The position numbers and the translations under genes are program-made. Source: Bacillota bacterium (GTDB taxonomy: Bacteria; Bacillota; UBA4882; UBA10575). From it: a stretch of DNA of 32,631 bases. Shown here piece by piece: positions 3,891 through 32,631 of the stretch; position 1 is the first letter of the stretch; each line of letters opens with the position of its first letter. Location of the stretch: contig JAAYHY010000031.1 in the NCBI GenBank assembly GCA_012735135.1, forward strand, positions 1-32,631. The letters run 5' to 3'. The notes below the pieces were generated by a model. The model saw only the letters and a list, made by a program, of their open reading frames with translations. It had not been told where the DNA came from and ran no database searches.

Positions 3891-6365
3891 TTATTCGTAT
3901 TTAATGGCAGACACAATATCCAATTTGGAAGATTTCAGGGCCGGACTGGTCGAAGCCGTTACCGTGATTAAAATACCGGCTAGAATGGAGGATAGATAAA
4001 GAGAAAGGGATTGGTGGATGGGGAATTTGCCCGCGACGGCCTTTAGAATCATGGGCGAAATCGAAATCAATAAATAACCGCATAAAGCGCCGACAATCCC
4101 TCCAATCAGGCCTCCGGTGAGGGCTTCGATTAAGAACATCTTAAGGGCTTGGTTTTTACTCATCCCAACGGAACGTAAGACCGCCAGCGCCCGTTGGCGT
4201 TCGAGAAAACTAATAATGAGATTATTAAAAACACCGAAGATGCCAATGACCAAAGCCAACAAGGAAAAACCCCGCATCACCCGGAAAAAGCTGGCGTTAT
4301 TTTCCCGGTCGGATGCTTCAAAGTCGGCAATGGTATTAATGGAGGGGTATCTTCGTTCCAACCTTTTTTTCAGGGTAGCGCTGACCAAGTCCGGATCCAG
4401 ATTTGTTTTGATAAAAAGATCATCGTAGTATTGCTTGCCCATATCCATTTTCATATATTTTTCAGCGATCAAGGCAAAATTACCGTTCCACATCAGGGAA
4501 TCATAAAAACCAATGATTTGGTAAGTTCGTTCTCCCCGGCTCATTTTTAATGTCAGCAAGTCGCCCTTCTGGACCTGCAGTCTTTCCCGCAGGGTGTTGG
4601 TGAGCAGAATCTTGCGTCCCGTATCCAGCTCCGCGAGGAGTTCCGGATCAATGTCGAGTTCCCAGAAATCAAGGTGTTTATATTTATTTACCCCATGGAT
4701 CAGGTTAATCCGGTCTTTCCGGTTGGTGATTTCGAGATAATTGGCACTGTAGATTCCATAAACAGCTTCCACACCCTCGATTTTACGGAGGATCGCCTCC
4801 AGGTTACGATCGGCTTGCCAAACCCAACCCCAAATCTGGAAATTGCAATTGCGGTAAAAATTAGTTACTTCCGTTGCCACACTGAAACTAATGGTGTTGA
4901 TCATCAAGAGGCTGGAGATGCCGATGGCGAGGAGGGAAATATTATTGAGAATTCCCTTATTTCCCCGTAAGTTTTTGGCCGCCAGGATCCCTTCATTGCC
5001 AAAAAGATAACGGTAAACCCGGGCAAAGACGGTCAGAAAAAGGTTGGTCAACCCCGGGATTAAGAGGATACAACCGATAATACTTGCGAAGATCAGGAGC
5101 ATCCCAACGGGCAGGAGAAGTGGAAATGGAATATAAGGCGGAAGGAAGACGGCGCCGGCGATCAGGATTAGACCAAGCACGGTTTTCCATCTCTTCCGGC
5201 GGGTAGGTTTACTGATGGTATTGAAGATGATCTCCTTGACCGGTATCTTGGCAATCTTCAGGATCGGCAGTAACGAACTGACCAAGGAGATGAGAACAGC
5301 CAAAAGAAAGGCCTGTCCTAGCTGTGCCGGGGTGTACCGGAGTGTTATGGTAGCCCCTGGGAAAGAGGCAATCTGTAAAGTAATCAAATAAAGGAGGATG
5401 AAGCCAAGGCCGCAACCGAGCAAACCGCCGATCGCACCGTAGGTAATACTTTCGGCGATCAGCACAAAGCTGGTCATCTTGCGGGTTGCCCCGATGCTGC
5501 GAAAAGTTCCGATCATCGGCAGTCGCTCTCTGGTGATGACCTTAAAGGAAGTATTAATAATATAAACCGCCATAAACAGGACAACAGTCCCCATCAGCTG
5601 AAAGGTGGTGGTTAAGGTCCGGGTATACTCCTTAAGTTCCTGGATCGTAATGGTCTCGGCTACTTGGTAGCGGGGGTAAGCAGCCCTCAGTTTTTCCATA
5701 AGTTCACCTTTACGGGCGGGGTCCTTTAATTTCAGATAAAGGATGGCCACTCGGCCCCGGGCATTTAAAATGGTGGCCAGCGTATCAAGGGGCACCACTA
5801 CGTTGATGTTTTGTCCGTCATCTTGAAAGGGGCCGACCGGCTCGGCCAAGGCGGCGATATAAAACTTGCGCTTGGCGCCGAGGAGATCGAGCTCCAGATA
5901 ATCCCCAAGCTTGAAACCGTAATCTGCCGCCGTTTTTTTACTGATGATCAGTTTTTTTCCGCGAAAAGGCAAAAGCTTATCTTCACCGGTGAGAAAGAAG
6001 GGATTCAGCTTTTCCAGTTCGGGCAGGGTAAAACCATTGACGCTGAGACGCAAAGTTTCCCCATGGTGGGAAAGCGTAGCTGAGGTTTCAATGGAACCGA
6101 CGATATACTCCAGTTCATCGCCGAATTGTTCTGCTCTGTTCCGGTAGAAGAAGGAAGACGGGGATTCCCGGGTTGGGTAAATCAACAGGTCAGCAGTGCC
6201 GTAGTATACCCTAAATCTTTCGAGAAACATGTCGGCTGCCGTATCGGAAAGGGCTTCCGTGGCAAAGTATAAGGCGGAGGAGAGCATTACGGAGGCCAGG
6301 ATCAATAAAGTTCTTAACTTCTTTTCCCAAACGTTTTTTAAAATAAACTTGATAATAATTCTCAA
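3891..6365 (-). CDS. FtsX-family ABC permease with two FtsX domains
   Basis: An 824-residue inner-membrane permease. The N-terminus has a first membrane helix (TLLILASVMLSSALYFATEAL) and then a large extracytoplasmic domain. An FtsX domain with three or four helices near 255-375 follows (signature FRSIGATRKMTSFVLIAESITYGAIGG). The pattern repeats: about 395-450 membrane helices, a helix near 485, a second extracytoplasmic domain, and a final FtsX domain at about 690-820 (LRSVGMSKNQALKMFLIEALTGGLIGG). This duplicated form is larger than E. coli MacB (about 650 residues with its ATPase fused) and resembles the stand-alone DUF214-type permeases. TTG start at 6365 has GGAAGG six bases upstream. 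First gene of the export operon. Confidence 0.9.
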   Translation of the reverse strand: MRIIIKFILKNVWEKKLRTLLILASVMLSSALYFATEALSDTAADMFLERFRVYYGTADLLIYPTRESPSSFFYRNRAEQFGDELEYIVGSIETSATLSHHGETLRLSVNGFTLPELEKLNPFFLTGEDKLLPFRGKKLIISKKTAADYGFKLGDYLELDLLGAKRKFYIAALAEPVGPFQDDGQNINVVVPLDTLATILNARGRVAILYLKLKDPARKGELMEKLRAAYPRYQVAETITIQELKEYTRTLTTTFQLMGTVVLFMAVYIINTSFKVITRERLPMIGTFRSIGATRKMTSFVLIAESITYGAIGGLLGCGLGFILLYLITLQIASFPGATITLRYTPAQLGQAFLLAVLISLVSSLLPILKIAKIPVKEIIFNTISKPTRRKRWKTVLGLILIAGAVFLPPYIPFPLLLPVGMLLIFASIIGCILLIPGLTNLFLTVFARVYRYLFGNEGILAAKNLRGNKGILNNISLLAIGISSLLMINTISFSVATEVTNFYRNCNFQIWGWVWQADRNLEAILRKIEGVEAVYGIYSANYLEITNRKDRINLIHGVNKYKHLDFWELDIDPELLAELDTGRKILLTNTLRERLQVQKGDLLTLKMSRGERTYQIIGFYDSLMWNGNFALIAEKYMKMDMGKQYYDDLFIKTNLDPDLVSATLKKRLERRYPSINTIADFEASDRENNASFFRVMRGFSLLALVIGIFGVFNNLIISFLERQRALAVLRSVGMSKNQALKMFLIEALTGGLIGGIVGALCGYLLISISPMILKAVAGKFPIHQSLSLYLSSILAGILITVTASTSPALKSSKLDIVSAIKYE

Positions 6366-9160: not shown

Positions 9161-11215
9161 ATGCGGAAAAAGACGAGGTTCTTGTTGTTTGTATTTTTGC
9201 TCTTCTTTGGTTTGCTCTGTGTTATGGCGCAAGCGCAGGACAGGATTGAGGTGGAGACCGGCCGGCCTGAGTTTATCGAAAAAATGCTCGAGAAGACTTC
9301 AGAAGAGAGTAGAGAAGAAGTGGCTTCCCTTCTGAAGCTGGATGACGATGAACTTTTGGAGGCGATCTCCCGCCGGACTTTTCAGTATTTTTGGCAAGAG
9401 GCCAATCCACGGAACGGGTTGATTAAGGATCGTAGCACTGTAGACTCGCCCAGTAGCATTGCCGCGGTGGGTTTCGGGTTAAGCGCAATTCCCGTGGCGG
9501 TTGAGCGGGGCTGGATTTCTTATGACGAAGGTTATCAACGGGCCTTGACCACCCTAAAGACTTTTGCCAAGGGTAAAGTGGAAGGGCGGAAGGGGTTTTA
9601 TTATCATTTTGTCGACATGCATTATGGAAAAAGGGTTTGGAACTGCGAACTGTCCTCGATTGACACAGCAATCCTGATTGCCGGAGGGATCGTCTGCGGT
9701 GAATACTTCAAAGGAACCAGCGTCGAAAAGTATGCCAATCAACTCTATGAAAAGGCGGATTGGCAATGGATGACCAATGGTGAGGAGACATTAACCATGG
9801 GGTGGGACCCCCTCCATGGTTTTCTTCGGGCCCGTTGGAACGGTTTTAACGAGGGGATTCTCGCCACTTTACTGGCGATCGGTTGACCCACCCATCCGCT
9901 CTCTCCGGAAGCATGGCACAAGATCTACCGGCCGGTGAAAGGCGGAACGTATATCAATTTACAAGACGAAGTCCTCTTTGTTTATCAATATCCCTTGATC
10001 TGGTTTGACCTCCGGGAAAAGGAAGACCGGTATGCCAATTATTGGCAGAACGCGATCGCCGCCATTAATTATAACCGGCTTTTTACTAGGTTTAACCGTA
10101 GTTACCTGACTTACCGGGGTAATATCTGGGGGCTAAGCGCCGGGGACGGCCCCACCGGCTATAAGGCCTATGGCGCTTTTCACGATAAACATGACGGCAC
10201 GATTGTGCCGTATGCCTCCATTGCTTCGTTGCCTTTTACGCCGGCGGAATCGATGGCGGCAATCCGGGAGATGCTGGCGAAATTTGGTCCATTGGTCTGG
10301 GGGAAATACGGTTTTGTCAGTGGCTTTAATGTAGACCGTAAATGGTTCTCCAAGCAACATATCGGCATCGACCAGGGCGCCATTTTACTGATGATTGAAA
10401 ATTACCGGACCGGTATGATCTGGGAGTATTTCATGCGCCACCCCAGGGTGCAAAAGGCTCTGGAACTTGCGGGTTTCAAAGAAAGTAACTCCGAATACGC
10501 GGTCACTCCCGCCTATGCGGAAGAGTATGAGGCCCTCATGCTCCTCCCCTCCCAGAAAACAGCTGAAGCCTTCCGCAGGCAAAAGGCGGTTTTGATCGAT
10601 GGGGATCTCACGGAATGGCAGGGTGTGCCCAGCTATTTGGTGGATGAAGACATGAATGTCCCCGATGGAAATATTACAAAAGTTGATAAAAACAAGATGA
10701 ATCTCCGCAGTGAGTTTTATCTTCAATGGGACGACGAGTACCTCTATTTAGCCGCCGATGTGACGGATGATGTAATCGTCAACAACCTCTCTCCAGCGGA
10801 ACGGGGCGCCTTTTACCGTACCGATTCGGTGGAGTTTTATATCGATCCCGGCCGGAGCGGAGGCGGGGCCGGTCTTTTCAAATTAAGTGTCCTTCCCTTT
10901 GATACTTTAGGCAACGTCCATGCGGCGCGGCACGAGGACGCCCGTCCCGGGCCGATCGAGGTCATGGCGCCGGGGACACGGGTGGCTTCCCGGCGGACTG
11001 TTAAAGGCTATAGTGTGGAAGTGGCCATTCCCTTTACGGAATTGGGGATTAGTCCCCAGGAAGGGCTGGTTCTGGGGTTCTGCCATACGGTGCATAATTG
11101 TAACGACCGGTCGGCTCCGCGCGGCGCTTATGTCCGGGAGAACATGATCGCCTGGAACCATCTGCCTATGGTGTGGGAAAATCCGGATTTGTGGGGAGAC
11201 TTGATTCTCAAGTAG
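9161..11215 (+). pseudogene. Secreted GH144-like glucanase with CBM9, split by in-frame TGA
   Basis: Start ATG 9161 follows AGAGGGGGA. A signal peptide ends near AQAQ. A PF10091 (GH144-like, endo-beta-1,2-glucanase) domain runs from LLEAISRRTFQYFWQEANP to FMRHPRVQKALELAGF, with WGLSAGDGPTGYKAYG and FNVDRKWF...IGIDQGAILLMIENYRTG matching the family. A CBM9-like domain follows (KAVLIDGDLTEWQG, DEYLYLAADVTDD, RTDSVEFYIDP, GYSVEVAIPFTELG). TGA at 9884-9886 interrupts the frame inside G-[stop]-PTHP, where the paralogue at 12798 reads GSPTHP (TCA). Everything after it stays open in the same frame to 11215, so there is no other decay. Possible causes are a recent nonsense mutation, a base error, or readthrough; a GTG at 9935 could only restart a fragment. 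Confidence 0.85.
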
Positions 11216-27832: not shown

Positions 27833-28198
27833 TTATTTACCCAAGTCCTCCCAGGTTTCTTCCAGTTCTTTTAATTCGGCCAAAGCCCCGCCTCTATCTT
27901 CAGCTGCGATATATCCTTGCAGCCGGGCCAGACTATGGCGGAAATTATTGATCTCGTCCCGTTCTTCACTGAATTGGAGGCGGCGGACCACTTTCCGCCA
28001 GGCTACTTCCAAGCGCTTTGCATTTTCGCCGGCTACGGGCCACTGATCTTGGGAGATCAGCATCGCTATGCGTTCAAAATAGGGTGGAACCGGATCAGCT
28101 AACCCGTAAGTTTTCAAAACCGTCCCGCTATTCATCAGGACCACAAAAAGGGCCAATGCTAAAGCGGGAATTACTTTGGCCAGGAGAAAGCGGCTCAT
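27833..28198 (-). CDS. DUF4363 family membrane-anchored protein
   Basis: A 121-residue protein with one N-terminal hydrophobic segment (FLLAKVIPALALALFVVLM) and a helical outer part (WPVAGENAKRLEVAWRKVVRRLQFSEERDEINNFRHSLARLQGYIAAED), matching the DUF4363 family of spore-forming Bacillota. These genes often lie beside DUF421 genes, as here; the order is DUF421, then DUF4363 after 134 bases, same strand. ATG 28198 is preceded by AAAGGGGATG. Function unknown. Confidence 0.8.
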   Translation of the reverse strand: MSRFLLAKVIPALALALFVVLMNSGTVLKTYGLADPVPPYFERIAMLISQDQWPVAGENAKRLEVAWRKVVRRLQFSEERDEINNFRHSLARLQGYIAAEDRGGALAELKELEETWEDLGK

Positions 28199-28332
28199 CT
28201 TTCATCCCCTTTTTTCTTTGGTCTCTTTGCGTTGTTCTCCTTTTCAACGATTCTGCCACCATCTATGGCTCTGCCGATAATCTTCTTACGGTCGGGGTGA
28301 GCCTCCCAATTAAGGTAACCACCCGCTTAGCT

Positions 28333-29061
28333 CTATTTAATGCTTTGGAAATCGCTCAGGTCTGTTACCTTTGGTAAGCGGTCTTGGTAGCGGTTGACGT
28401 AAAGCTCGCCTTCGGTGTTGAGCAGGGCGAGAAATACTTCGCGGTGGTTTTGGATCCCTTGCGCGCTTAGTTGTTTTTCCAGCCAGGTCCGGTCCAGGTT
28501 AACCCGTTCCAGGTTGGCATCGATAATACGCCCGTCGTAGATGAGTTCGGTGCTCAGTCCTTTATATTTTGTCGGAATATTTAAATCGTCAGGGGTGACC
28601 GGGGCATACTGGCTCTTACGCAAAACCGAAATACTCCCGTTGGTTTCTAAAATTGCGAATTCCACCGTCTTTAAGTCAAATATATTCTGGTGGCGCAGCT
28701 GCATCAGGAGTTCATCGAGGGTATAACGCATCTTCCGTAAATTTCTCTCCATAATCTGACCGTTCATGATCAGGATGACCGGTTCACCGTTAATATATTT
28801 GGCAACGGCGCGGGAACGCAAGGTGATCCACTGGAGAAACCAAACGGCCGCCGTCCACGTCGCCAGTCCTACCCAATGGGGCCACGCCCGGCTGGATAAG
28901 TCGGTGGTGAGGGAGGCGGCGATGGAGCCGATGGTAATCCCGAGAATATAGTCGAAAAAGGTTAATTCGCTGACCTGTTGTTTCCCCAGGATGCGGGCGA
29001 AAATCAGGAGGGTAAAAAAGGAAATGAGGCCCCGGACAAATACGACTGCCGCTTCGTTCAC
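28333..29061 (-). CDS. DUF421 (YetF-like) membrane protein
   Basis: A 242-residue protein of the YetF/YcaP family. Three N-terminal helices (FVRGLISFFTLLIFARILGKQQV, FFDYILGITIGSIAAS, WVGLATWTAAVWFLQWITL) precede the two-part cytoplasmic domain: INGEPVILIMNGQIMERNLRKMRYTLDELLMQLR, then VEFAILETNGSISVLRKSQ, a known pattern of the family. GTG 29061 with a GGTGAG site. YetF-like proteins in spore formers have been linked to germination or membrane functions. It is complete, unlike the copy immediately upstream. Confidence 0.85.
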   Translation of the reverse strand: MNEAAVVFVRGLISFFTLLIFARILGKQQVSELTFFDYILGITIGSIAASLTTDLSSRAWPHWVGLATWTAAVWFLQWITLRSRAVAKYINGEPVILIMNGQIMERNLRKMRYTLDELLMQLRHQNIFDLKTVEFAILETNGSISVLRKSQYAPVTPDDLNIPTKYKGLSTELIYDGRIIDANLERVNLDRTWLEKQLSAQGIQNHREVFLALLNTEGELYVNRYQDRLPKVTDLSDFQSIK

Positions 29062-29075
29062 GCGCTCACCACTTT

Positions 29076-29636
29076 TCAGAAAATATTAGGCACCATTATT
29101 TTTTCCTTTTGCTTGTGATCGATGTATAATTCACCGGTTGATTTTAGTTCAGCCAGGAAAATTGTTTCCGGATTCGGCGCGCCCGCTTTCTTGATTTCCT
29201 GGTATAACCAGTCGGTGCTTAGCTTGGCGTATTTTAAATTGTTATATTGAATCTCGCCGTCAATAATTAACGGGAGAGCCAGTCCTTCATACTCCGTATT
29301 GATTTGGAGATCTTTTGGTTGGACCGGGCGGTTTTGGGATTTGGGCAGCACCGAAAGGTTACCGTTGGGTTCTAAGATGGCATACTCCACAGCGGACAGA
29401 TTGGCGTACCCTTGGAGGCGGAGCAAGGAGAGGAGAAAAGGGAGGTTTATCCGGTTTTTCCTCAGCTCTTCCCGGCGGATCTTACCATTGGCAATGAGGA
29501 TACTGGGTTTTGCATCCACATTGTAAAACCCTTTACGCAAGGAGAGCCAACCGATAAAAACGGCCATTAAGGCAATAAGCAGCGAACCGACAAATGCTTT
29601 GGAGCTGATTTTATAGACCAGCGGTTCAGCAGCGAC
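29076..29636 (-). pseudogene. 5'-truncated DUF421 gene
   Basis: A second DUF421 copy. The frame is open from 29636 and starts in the middle of the membrane domain (EPLVYKISSKAFVGSLLIALMAVFIGWLSLR), then continues with a full cytoplasmic domain (DAKPSILIANGKIRREELRKN, VEYAILEPNGNLSVLPKSQ) to a normal stop. The first one or two helices, about 45 residues, are missing. The only ATG, at 29567, has no ribosome site. A TGA blocks the frame at 29637-29639. The sequence upstream is unrelated, so an insertion or deletion removed the 5' end. It ends 14 bases before the intact copy. Confidence 0.7.
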
Positions 29637-29696
29637 TCAACGCTGCCGGCCACTGCTCAAGCCGGGCGTCGGCGCTAATCTCGGCAAAAAGACCCG

Positions 29697-29745
29697 CCAA
29701 CTTGCCCGCGTTAAAGCGAAAAGACAGATTCCACGGGCAAGTTGG
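29697..29745. terminator. 12-bp inverted repeat, possible Dps-gene terminator
   Basis: CCAACTTGCCCG and CGGGCAAGTTGG pair perfectly across a 25-base loop. On the minus strand the stem is followed by CGGGTCTTTTT, so it may end the ferritin-like gene transcript. The loop is long for a terminator, and the repeat lies in the foreign-looking segment that truncates the DUF421 copy. Confidence 0.4.
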
Positions 29746-29818
29746 TGCGGCCGCTATGTTTTCCGGAGCAGTTAGCTCCTAAGGGGGCTTGCTTTCGGGC
29801 TTACCTTTATTACCTTAG

Positions 29819-30562
29819 TTATTGCAGTTTGCTACCGGGATCCATCGGTCGATCTCCGGCAATATTCCCCTCCCCGCTAAGGAGATGTTCCATTCCACGG
29901 ACAAGGGTATCATCTTCGAGCACACTGTAGAGATGGTAACCTAGGTCTTCCCGGTCCACCAGTACTTCCTCGAGGACTTGCACGGTCCCAAAGTCATGGA
30001 GTTCATGGGCGCGGGCAATGGTCTGCCTCATCATTTGCTGGAGTTTTAATTCATGTTCCAGGTCATTACGGAGGAAATCCCGGAGGGAATAACGGCCTTC
30101 CGCTTCATGTTTGATGTAGGAGAGATCATGCTGCGTAACCGGGTGAGCCGTGGGGACTACGCCCAACCGGGCTACCCTTTCGCCGATCATATCAATATGC
30201 TTTTGGGTCTGTTCGATGTGCTCTTCCAGGAGGTGGTGGATACTGATGAACCCCTCAGCGCCTTCGCTCATCCAGTGGTGTTTATTATACTGGTGCAAGG
30301 CAACATTGAGGGCGCATTGGTGGTCATCAAGCATTAAGCCGATCTCCAGGCGGACTTCATAAGGAAGGGAGATCCCGGCGCCAATTTGCTTGGCGGTCCT
30401 GGGTGGTTGACGTAAGATCATGGTATGATCGGTGTGATGGCCGGGCATTTTGGGGTCAAAACCCGATTTGGTCAGGTTGAACGTTCCTTGAAAGTTGGTC
30501 ATATTCGTCATTACTTTGTTGATTTCCATGGTTGATTGGGTCATTGGTTGTACATTGTCCAT
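29819..30562 (-). CDS. Dps-like ferritin-family protein with N-terminal extension
   Basis: A 247-residue protein. Residues from about 70 fit the Dps/ferritin-like four-helix pattern: LEIGLMLDDHQCALNVALHQYNKHHWMSEG (the family's N-H-W motif), then HHLLEEHIEQTQKHIDMIGERVARLGVVPTAHP, and a last helix DFGTVQVLEEVLVDREDLGYHLYSVLED. Acidic and His residues needed for an iron site are present (H, D/E in the first two helices). The first 70 residues, polar with Met and Gln, are an unusual extension. Dps proteins store iron and protect DNA. ATG 30562 has a perfect AAAAGGAG site. Single gene; no PerR box is clear. Confidence 0.75.
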   Translation of the reverse strand: MDNVQPMTQSTMEINKVMTNMTNFQGTFNLTKSGFDPKMPGHHTDHTMILRQPPRTAKQIGAGISLPYEVRLEIGLMLDDHQCALNVALHQYNKHHWMSEGAEGFISIHHLLEEHIEQTQKHIDMIGERVARLGVVPTAHPVTQHDLSYIKHEAEGRYSLRDFLRNDLEHELKLQQMMRQTIARAHELHDFGTVQVLEEVLVDREDLGYHLYSVLEDDTLVRGMEHLLSGEGNIAGDRPMDPGSKLQ

Positions 30563-30728
30563 TTACACAACTCCTTTTAATTTGACTTCAAGGGTAGTTT
30601 TTGATGATGAACAAATAATATGCACCATGCTGGTAGGGTGGGGTGGTCGACAAGTTTGTTCGTGGAAGCAAGTTGTATGAATTAAAACCGGACGCGAGAA
30701 TGTTTGGGTTATTTCAGCCGATTCATAG

Positions 30729-30758
30729 TTGGTGTTCTAGCCCCAGGACAAGTATAAT
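30729..30758 (+). promoter_or_regulatory. Probable promoter of the AraC-family gene
   Basis: TTGGTG at 30729-30734, 18-base spacer, TATAAT at 30753-30758. It leaves a leader of about 120 bases. The rest of the 325-base gap between the divergent Dps-like and AraC genes shows nothing else clear. Confidence 0.5.
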
Positions 30759-30887
30759 TATGGTAAATAAGAAGGGCTGTCCGAATTATAAAAATCTAAT
30801 GGGTACTTGCAATAGATGGCACAAAAAATCGGGCATGGCGCTGAAATGAAGATTATAATGAAAGCAAGCCGGGGAGGAGTAAATGGG

Positions 30888-31727
30888 ATGAATGGATGGA
30901 TCGAGGGTATTCAAAATGCCATCGCGTATATTGAGGAGAATCTCACTGGGGAACTGAAGATCGAAGAGATTGCTGAAAAAGCATATGTTTCGGCCTTTCA
31001 CTTCCAGCGAATCTTCAGTGTACTATGTGGTTTCACCGTCGGCGAGTATATCAGAAACCGCAGGCTTAGCATGGCAGCGCAAGAACTCTCCAAAGCGGAT
31101 GCCAGGATCGTTGATGTTGCCATCAAGTATGGTTATGATTCTCCGGACAGTTTTACCCGGGCATTCACCAAATTTCATGGCATTTCTCCCTCGGCGGCGA
31201 AAACCAAAGGGGTAAACCTCAAATCGTTTGCACCGGTCAGAATCAAATTAATATTGGAGGGTGGACAAATGCTCGAGTACAAGGTTGTGGAAAAGGCACA
31301 GTTTACGGTGATGGGTAAAGCGAGGACCTTCGACACGGATACTGCTTATCGTGAGATCCCCAAGTTTTGGGAGGAACACCTGCAGAGTGAAGAAAAGAAC
31401 ATCGTTTCCGGTATGTACGGGGTCTGCATCGACAATGACGGGAAAAAATTTGAGTACCTGATCGCGGACAACTACTTACCATGGAACGAGGTTCCTGACG
31501 GCTATGAAACCCGGGTGATTCCCGCCGGAACATGGGCGGTCTTCCCGTGCCGGGGCGCCTTGCCCAAAGCATTGCAGGATGTTAACACCAGAATTTGGAG
31601 CGAATGGCTGCCAAGTTGCAAGGAATACAAGCTTGCGAGGAACTATACTATTGAACTCTACGCCCCGCCGGCAGAGAACCCGGACGATAACTACAGTGAA
31701 ATCTGGATCCCTGTGGAGAGAGTTTGA
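30888..31727 (+). CDS. AraC-family regulator with GyrI-like effector domain
   Basis: A 279-residue regulator. The N-terminus is the AraC DNA-binding domain with two helix-turn-helix units: IEEIAEKAYVSAFHFQRIFSVLCGFTVGEYIRNRRL and IVDVAIKYGYDSPDSFTRAFTKFHGISPSAAK. From about 127 it carries a GyrI-like ligand domain (MLEYKVVEKAQFTVMGKAR ... YSEIWIPV), as in Rob/SoxS-relatives and BmrR-like sensors of small hydrophobic molecules. ATG 30888 follows GGGGAGGAG; ATG 30816 opens the same frame earlier but without a site. It stands alone, with its own terminator. Confidence 0.9.
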   Translation: MNGWIEGIQNAIAYIEENLTGELKIEEIAEKAYVSAFHFQRIFSVLCGFTVGEYIRNRRLSMAAQELSKADARIVDVAIKYGYDSPDSFTRAFTKFHGISPSAAKTKGVNLKSFAPVRIKLILEGGQMLEYKVVEKAQFTVMGKARTFDTDTAYREIPKFWEEHLQSEEKNIVSGMYGVCIDNDGKKFEYLIADNYLPWNEVPDGYETRVIPAGTWAVFPCRGALPKALQDVNTRIWSEWLPSCKEYKLARNYTIELYAPPAENPDDNYSEIWIPVERV

Positions 31728-31771
31728 AATGAGTTTGCTTTGTAAATAGCCATCTTTGCCTTGTCGATCTG

Positions 31772-31815
31772 GGATTGCCGGCCGGACTCCGGCCGGCAAT
31801 CCTTAAAATTTTTTT
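31772..31815 (+). terminator. Terminator after the AraC-family gene
   Basis: A 13-base perfect stem GGATTGCCGGCCG / CGGCCGGCAATCC with a five-base loop, followed by TTAAAATTTTTTT. Confidence 0.92.
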
Positions 31816-31950
31816 GATTAAGGAATACTTCCCAGCTTAACACTATTTTTTTGATGAGTATGGATTTGAAACTCGCTTTTAAGCGGGTTTCATTTGTTTT
31901 GAAAGTTATGCGGGTTTGAGGAAAGATAGAAAAAATATAAAGGCAAGCAC

Positions 31951-31979
31951 TTGCATTAATAAATAACATATGTTATATA
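31951..31979 (+). promoter_or_regulatory. Promoter of the TetR-like gene
   Basis: TTGCAT at 31951-31956, 17-base spacer, TATATA at 31974-31979. The spacer holds a 14-bp palindrome, so a bound TetR protein would block polymerase. Confidence 0.6.
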
Positions 31980-32004
31980 ATATAAATCATGTAACATACG
32001 TTAT
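31963..32004. promoter_or_regulatory. Tandem TetR-type operators
   Basis: ATAACATATGTTAT (31963-31976) is a perfect palindrome, and GTAACATACGTTAT (31991-32004) is a near copy 28 bases downstream. They flank the -10 box and predicted start. Such paired palindromes ahead of a TetR gene are typical of autorepression. Confidence 0.75.
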
Positions 32005-32019
32005 AAGGATGGTGATGAT

Positions 32020-32364
32020 ATGGGACCCAAGGTTAAATTCACCAAGGAACAGATTATCGATACAGCTTTTAAAATAGCTCAGACAGAGGGAATCGACAGT
32101 ATAACTATGAGAAAAATCGCAGAAAAAATGGGTAGTTCAGTTGCACCTACTTATAAAGAACGGAAATACGGTATTTTGGTCCAGTGGTTCTCGGAAGAAC
32201 TGGGTTTTGCGGTTAAGACGCAAACCAAGGATGCGAAAGGGAAGGTCACTTCGACCGTTGAGTACCAAAATATTGTCGAAGGCAAGCAGCCGGATGAGCT
32301 GTTTGAGATCCCCAGCGGGTACACGAAGTTTTCAATCATCCCGAAACTACCCTTTTCTTTTTAG
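32020..32364 (+). pseudogene. TetR N-terminus fused to an unrelated C-terminus
   Basis: A 114-residue chimera. Residues 1-48 are a normal TetR DNA-binding domain (FTKEQIIDTAFKIAQTEGID, then SITMRKIAEKMGSSVAPTYK). At about residue 49 the expected continuation is lost. The rest (YGILVQWFSEELGFAVKTQT, then VEYQNIVEGKQPDELFEIPSGYTKF) reads like the end of a DUF4412-type secreted protein (from memory). An internal deletion joining two genes in frame would explain it. The TetR ligand and dimer domain is absent, so it should not work as a normal repressor, though a short DNA-binding product may still be made. ATG 32020 with a GGATGGTGAT site; terminator downstream. Confidence 0.7.
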
Positions 32365-32402
32365 AGTGGAGCGCTTTTTCTCAGAGAATACATAAAACGT
32401 GG

Positions 32403-32428
32403 AAAGGAACCGTTTGGGTTCCTTTTAT
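32403..32428 (+). terminator. Terminator after the TetR chimera
   Basis: AAAGGAACC / GGTTCCTTT, nine pairs with a five-base loop, followed by TTAT. Confidence 0.8.
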
Positions 32429-32510
32429 GACTCACGTCAACTCGTCGGCAAGATTGCTGATGCAGCTTTATTCCAATAGCCCGAGGGTATATTGCCAAAA
32501 AAGTTATCTC

Positions 32511-32541
32511 GCGTAATCGCCCATGCCGATTACGCTTTTTT
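32511..32541 (+). terminator. Second terminator near the window end
   Basis: GCGTAATCG / CGATTACGC, nine perfect pairs with a seven-base loop, followed by TTTTTT. No gene is recognised between 32429 and this hairpin, so its transcript is unclear. The final 90 bases show nothing. Confidence 0.75.
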
Positions 32542-32631
32542 GTCTGGTTTTTGTTTAGTCATGATGTTTAAAATAAAAAAGTGGAGAGATTAACGGAACT
32601 GTAGAAGGTTTGATTATGAACCAGCGGGCAG

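Follow-up and report, generated by a model that had tools for sequence, protein, structure and literature searches.

Here, we describe a 114-aa open reading frame (ORF) close to the end of a draft-genome contig, in which the 5' part of a TetR-family repressor gene is joined in frame to the end of a DUF4412 gene, and which is most likely to be a contig-end joint or else a tetR pseudogene, and not a new kind of regulator. The window (the whole stretch of 32,631 nucleotides that was analysed) is contig C148 of draft genome G000 (161 contigs, 2.56 Mb, completeness 99.29, contamination 2.86) and runs to the contig end, base 32631; its features are collected in Table 1. Both halves of the ORF belong to known families, and neither qualifies as a whole protein. 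Pfam places TetR_N (PF00440) at ORF residues 12-41 over profile positions 1-30 of 47, with 19.4 bits against a cut-off of 24 bits, whereas the intact TetR of the congener G006 scores 29.9 bits over 46 of 47 positions; the 114-aa product thus holds an incomplete N-terminal helix-turn-helix (HTH), and where the C-terminal helical ligand-binding/dimerisation domain of a TetR repressor would stand it carries a DUF4412 tail. This tail (PF14371, ORF residues 56-101, 23.2 bits) exceeds its curated cut-off of 21.6 bits, covers profile positions 146-191 of 191, and is without the first two thirds of the domain and the signal-peptide-like hydrophobic N-terminus of intact copies. An earlier note on this DNA had proposed that the N-terminal part of a TetR protein is joined in frame to the end of a DUF4412-like protein, and both Pfam and DNA comparison bear this out. 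An in-frame reading across such a joint is a 1-in-3 chance expectation.

Table 1. Features of the window at and upstream of the contig end (positions are those of the window)
Feature	Position	Strand	Description
AraC-type HTH + GyrI-like/Cass2 effector-binding regulator	30816..31727	+	303-aa ORF, intact here
Rho-independent terminator-like hairpin after AraC-type gene	31771..31803	+	15-pair stem, T-rich tail
Operator-like palindrome 1	31964..31977	.	TAACATATGTTATA; common in TetR family
Operator-like palindrome 2	31992..32005	.	TAACATACGTTATA; two departures from consensus
Chimeric ORF	32020-32364	+	114 aa
tetR 5' part	32020..32147	+	Codons 1-42 plus two bases of codon 43; DNA match to G006:C30
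Joint	32147..32148	.	No microhomology at cut; seen in G000 alone among 29 genomes of the class
DUF4412 3' third + stop codon	32148..32364	+	Secreted, LolA-like family; in frame with tetR piece
Terminator-like hairpin of DUF4412 locus	32511..32535	+	Carried along by right arm

DNA searches of 61 genomes (the window's own and 60 relatives) gave matches in 11, and these place the joint to the base. Homology to the G006 tetR ends at 32147, and in most relatives homology to DUF4412 genes begins at 32148: at exactly that base in both copies on G000:C41 and in G006, G007, G003, G013 and G011, and no more than 16 bp from it in G008 and G014. The earlier note was right to see a chimera joint, which lies slightly to the left of the interval it gave (32150-32180). 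Placed side by side, the parental sequences differ immediately left and right of the cut, codon 43 is a hybrid (CC + T), and the longest word common to both parents within 60 bp of the joint is 7 nt, with no shared k-mer of the kind expected of a de Bruijn misjoin. A k-mer misjoin near the joint is therefore excluded as far as the parents are known, and an artefact would need chimeric molecules. Of the 29 genomes of the class, that of the window is alone in having the joint sequence, 3 mismatches being allowed; among the 60 other genomes and the 19 named loci no match crosses it, and viral contigs contain no exact match to it, so that it is confined to one assembly, as an assembly chimera would be. 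Throughout those 60 genomes and 19 loci, TetR-side matches end and DUF4412-side matches begin within a few residues of the joint; the one exception, a 58%-identical TetR match in L060 that reaches residue 60, comes from a locus that itself encodes an intact TetR. The contig continues for 484 bp past the joint, and the earlier note was right to warn of an assembly joint. The last 80 bp of C148 show no overlap with the remaining contigs (the next best match in the own genome is 25 bp long, E 0.33), so C148 does not stop at a repeat that a second binned contig shares; a coverage gap would leave such an end.

The left arm is a true tetR locus of this genus, which in its intact form has twin operators, tetR and then a gene for a CPBP/Rce1-like membrane protease. 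Up to 32147 its DNA is 98% identical to the intact 190-aa tetR of G006 (G006:C30:26076-26645), with 0 amino-acid differences over 42 codons, and window positions 28000-32147 are collinear with G006:C30, broken by stretches absent from G006. There, the CPBP/Rce1-like protease gene (PF02517) comes next after tetR, then genes for a methyltransferase and an MFS transporter. The window shares with this known TetR (PF00440) the first 42 residues and twin operators in the same place, but lacks everything from residue 43, and no protease gene follows. All 16 TetR-family loci fetched encode proteins of about 190 aa (15 of them were also aligned, one under its G006 copy), and 10 have a protease gene directly downstream of tetR. 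The arrangement of tetR, CPBP/Rce1-like protease gene and twin ATAACATATGTTAT-like operators recurs in many uncultured Firmicutes metagenome-assembled genomes (MAGs; L047-L062), and a literature search found no study of a TetR/CPBP-Rce1-like protease gene pair with twin operators. Across the joint, the intact family members read SS(V/I)APIY(V/L/F)NFK in 16 of 16 cases, and the window reads SSVAPTYKERK. The reading which the earlier note had set against a fusion, an ordinary TetR C-terminus, here in divergent form, found no support and is thus rejected as extremely improbable: every intact member continues differently, and the segment in question both passes the DUF4412 cut-off and is 97% identical over 71 residues to a DUF4412 protein of the same genome.

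Upstream of the ORF, the paired palindromic operators described in the earlier note are indeed retained. Both are 14-nt near-palindromes, spaced 28 bp apart, and their presence upstream of the gene is as expected for a TetR repressor. In 11 of 17 TetR-family loci, the window included, the 100 bp before the start contain at least two such sites, against 0.02 loci expected from shuffles; across L047-L062 the spacing is mostly 28 bp where two sites were found. From this position and conservation, the sites are read as putative TetR autoregulatory operators. One ATAACATNNGTTAT elsewhere in the genome, on C129 inside a 762-aa ORF on the other strand, was considered as an orphan operator and set aside, as it is not a clear regulon site.

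The right arm is a recently functional DUF4412 gene end whose closest relatives are not in its own genome alone. Positions 32148-32364 are 85-90% identical in DNA to the DUF4412 genes of G000:C41, G007, G006, G013, G003 and G008. Over 216 nt, identity is 0.894 to the second C41 copy and 0.843 to the first, 0.903 to G007, 0.903 to G013 and 0.894 to G006; these pairwise values are kept from the rows other than G014 of an alignment in which the G014 row was cut out of register, and a tree of DUF4412 tails built from it was dropped, support also being low. Compared with the second C41 copy, 2 of 71 residues differ (97% identity) and 23 of 213 nucleotides differ, 20 of these 23 in synonymous codons, so the arm was evolving under purifying selection, within a working DUF4412 gene, until very recently. 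Since both arms look functional up to the joint, any fusion would be very young. The DUF4412 locus also continues beyond the stop codon: positions 32511-32580 match DNA downstream of DUF4412 in G013 (83%) and 32511-32541 match that in G007 (94%), whereas the DNA downstream of the own C41 copies is different and gives short, weak matches only. The window piece thus resembles the intact second C41 gene over its last 71 residues, has its terminator in common with the G013 and G007 loci, and differs from the C41 genes in lacking the signal-peptide-like N-terminus and first two thirds; by these comparisons it is not a fresh copy of either C41 gene. G003, G006, G007, G008 and G013 have one DUF4412 match each, and G000 already has two on C41. 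The two C41 genes (5396-5983 and 10089-10679; L008) encode proteins 78% identical to each other and lie 4 kb apart, with a transporter gene and a gene for a 656-aa iron-sulphur-type protein between them; in G003 and G007 the single DUF4412 match adjoins a transporter. No paper in the library searched contains the name 'DUF4412'.

The earlier note offered a fusion by deletion or an assembly joint, and this choice of readings stands in outline; a deletion between neighbouring genes finds no support in any relative. Intact orthologues of the two halves, which the note had suggested looking for side by side in relatives, do not occur together: within the fetched flanks, DUF4412 is present in 0 of 16 TetR loci (L047-L062) and TetR in 0 of 11 DUF4412 loci, counts in which three of the 11 DUF4412 loci, and L047 among the TetR loci, look, by their length, like contigs also present among the G-numbered genomes. 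With protease, methyltransferase and MFS transporter as the syntenic neighbours in G006, a simple deletion was rejected.

The surroundings nevertheless do rearrange, as G006 itself has deletions beside tetR. The AraC-type regulator upstream matches Pfam HTH_18 and GyrI-like well above cut-off in the window, where its true start is probably further inside the ORF. In the G006 copy (L063:7340-7897, G006:C30) the HTH domain is wholly lost by an in-frame deletion and a second deletion affects the 3' end, so that a GyrI-like protein of 185 aa remains; the ends of the two deletions share about 3 and 10 bp, and the gene before it is apparently also deleted in part. Downstream, the ~3.2 kb that follow in G006 (tetR 3' end, protease, methyltransferase) have no DNA match in G000. 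The next syntenic gene, the MFS transporter, is found on G000 contig C111, where a repeat comes first and homology sets in at base 104. C145 opens with the same 126 bp as C111 (L080:1-126), and the last 76 of these form the start of C122. At least three G000 contigs begin with this repeat, five G003 contigs have close copies of it at or near their starts, and its copies (L080, L104, L105, L106-L110) all end at the same base (GATCATAGAGGGAG) with different genes behind. It is possibly the end of a mobile element, or else a mobile promoter; six loci scanned gave no Rfam family and one G003 copy gave no plasmid match, and an Rfam scan of window positions 30000-32631 found nothing. A multicopy element beside a synteny break suggests a real rearrangement.

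A functional fusion, i.e. a short ligand-blind DNA-binding peptide made under its own twin operators, is very unlikely, even with an ORF that is open and in frame and a start region and operators that are retained. The AlphaFold2 model of the intact G006 TetR (mean pLDDT 86.3, 16 sequences) has its third helix at residues 42-47 and six longer helices after it. In TetR proteins the third helix is the recognition helix. As the joint falls in codon 43, its six residues are reduced to two and none of the dimerisation and ligand helices remains, which makes a working DNA-binding peptide unlikely by the model. The TetR origin given in the earlier note holds, but its 'DNA-binding half' is an overstatement, the recognition helix itself being cut, and its 'ligand-blind DNA-binding peptide' finds no support, given this cut, the loss of the dimerisation helices and the low confidence of the chimera model. 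That model has a mean pLDDT of 42.1 from a shallow alignment (A3) without information for the N-terminal half, which is not meaningfully aligned, so that low values at residues 1-42 are weak evidence; in another alignment, A1, the DUF4412 tails were matched to the TetR half, and A1 did not enter the fold. No conserved homologue of the fusion was found in the 60 other genomes, the 19 named loci or the 29 genomes of the class. Without a hydrophobic N-terminus, the DUF4412 part would be predicted to stay in the cytosol, and we infer that the 114-aa product, if made, would be non-functional. There is similarly little chance that the joint is real and that a just-created TetR-DUF4412 product weakly interacts with the twin operators or titrates another regulator.

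Between the two remaining origins, we lean towards a joint made in assembly or co-assembly; that tetR was destroyed by a real, recent rearrangement is somewhat less than evenly likely, and these weights are judgements and not computed values. The sequence comparisons show the joint, the nature of its two arms and the parts that are missing; the artefact and the loss of function are inferred. As an artefact, two unrelated gene ends would have been brought together close to where a contig of a metagenome-type assembly stops. The right arm, a DUF4412 gene end followed by the terminator of its locus, would probably stem from a relative in the co-assembly, and the joint would most likely have arisen in the library or during assembly (from a chimeric read or read pair where coverage is low) and not in the organism. 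We favour this origin because other species match the right arm as closely as the own second C41 copy does, because the joint lies near a contig end that overlaps no other contig and occurs in one genome of the class, and because relatives have a single DUF4412 match where G000 already has two. In chimeric contigs and misassemblies of MAGs, one locus likewise changes to another at an exact point close to the end of a contig, in one assembly only; the window differs from them in having no shared k-mer at its joint. A real event would, quite plausibly if with less than even probability, have been an illegitimate (blunt) recombination, perhaps linked to the multicopy element beside the MFS gene, in which the tetR 3' end, protease and methyltransferase were replaced by DNA with a third DUF4412 gene end, leaving tetR as a pseudogene and its operators orphaned. 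The 3.2 kb that separate tetR from the MFS gene in G006 and go unmatched in a 99.3%-complete assembly, the own breakpoint of C111 at the repeat, the blunt parents, which argue against a simple k-mer misjoin, and the deletions of the congener G006 in the same region all speak for such an event. The closeness of the contig end and a right arm that is not closest to its own copies speak against it, as do the absence of anything comparable in any relative and of visible decay in either arm; moreover, the missing 3.2 kb may sit in short or unbinned contigs (the shortest of 20 contigs examined was 2009 bp).

An assembly or co-assembly joint thus remains the favoured origin, and where a draft contig shows two domains fused in frame near its end, congeners should be compared before any function is put forward. 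If the joint does exist in the chromosome, tetR would be dead, its product should neither bind the operators nor sense ligand, and any operator-controlled gene would be derepressed. It would then be an ordinary case of a repressor lost by illegitimate recombination, with its operators orphaned.
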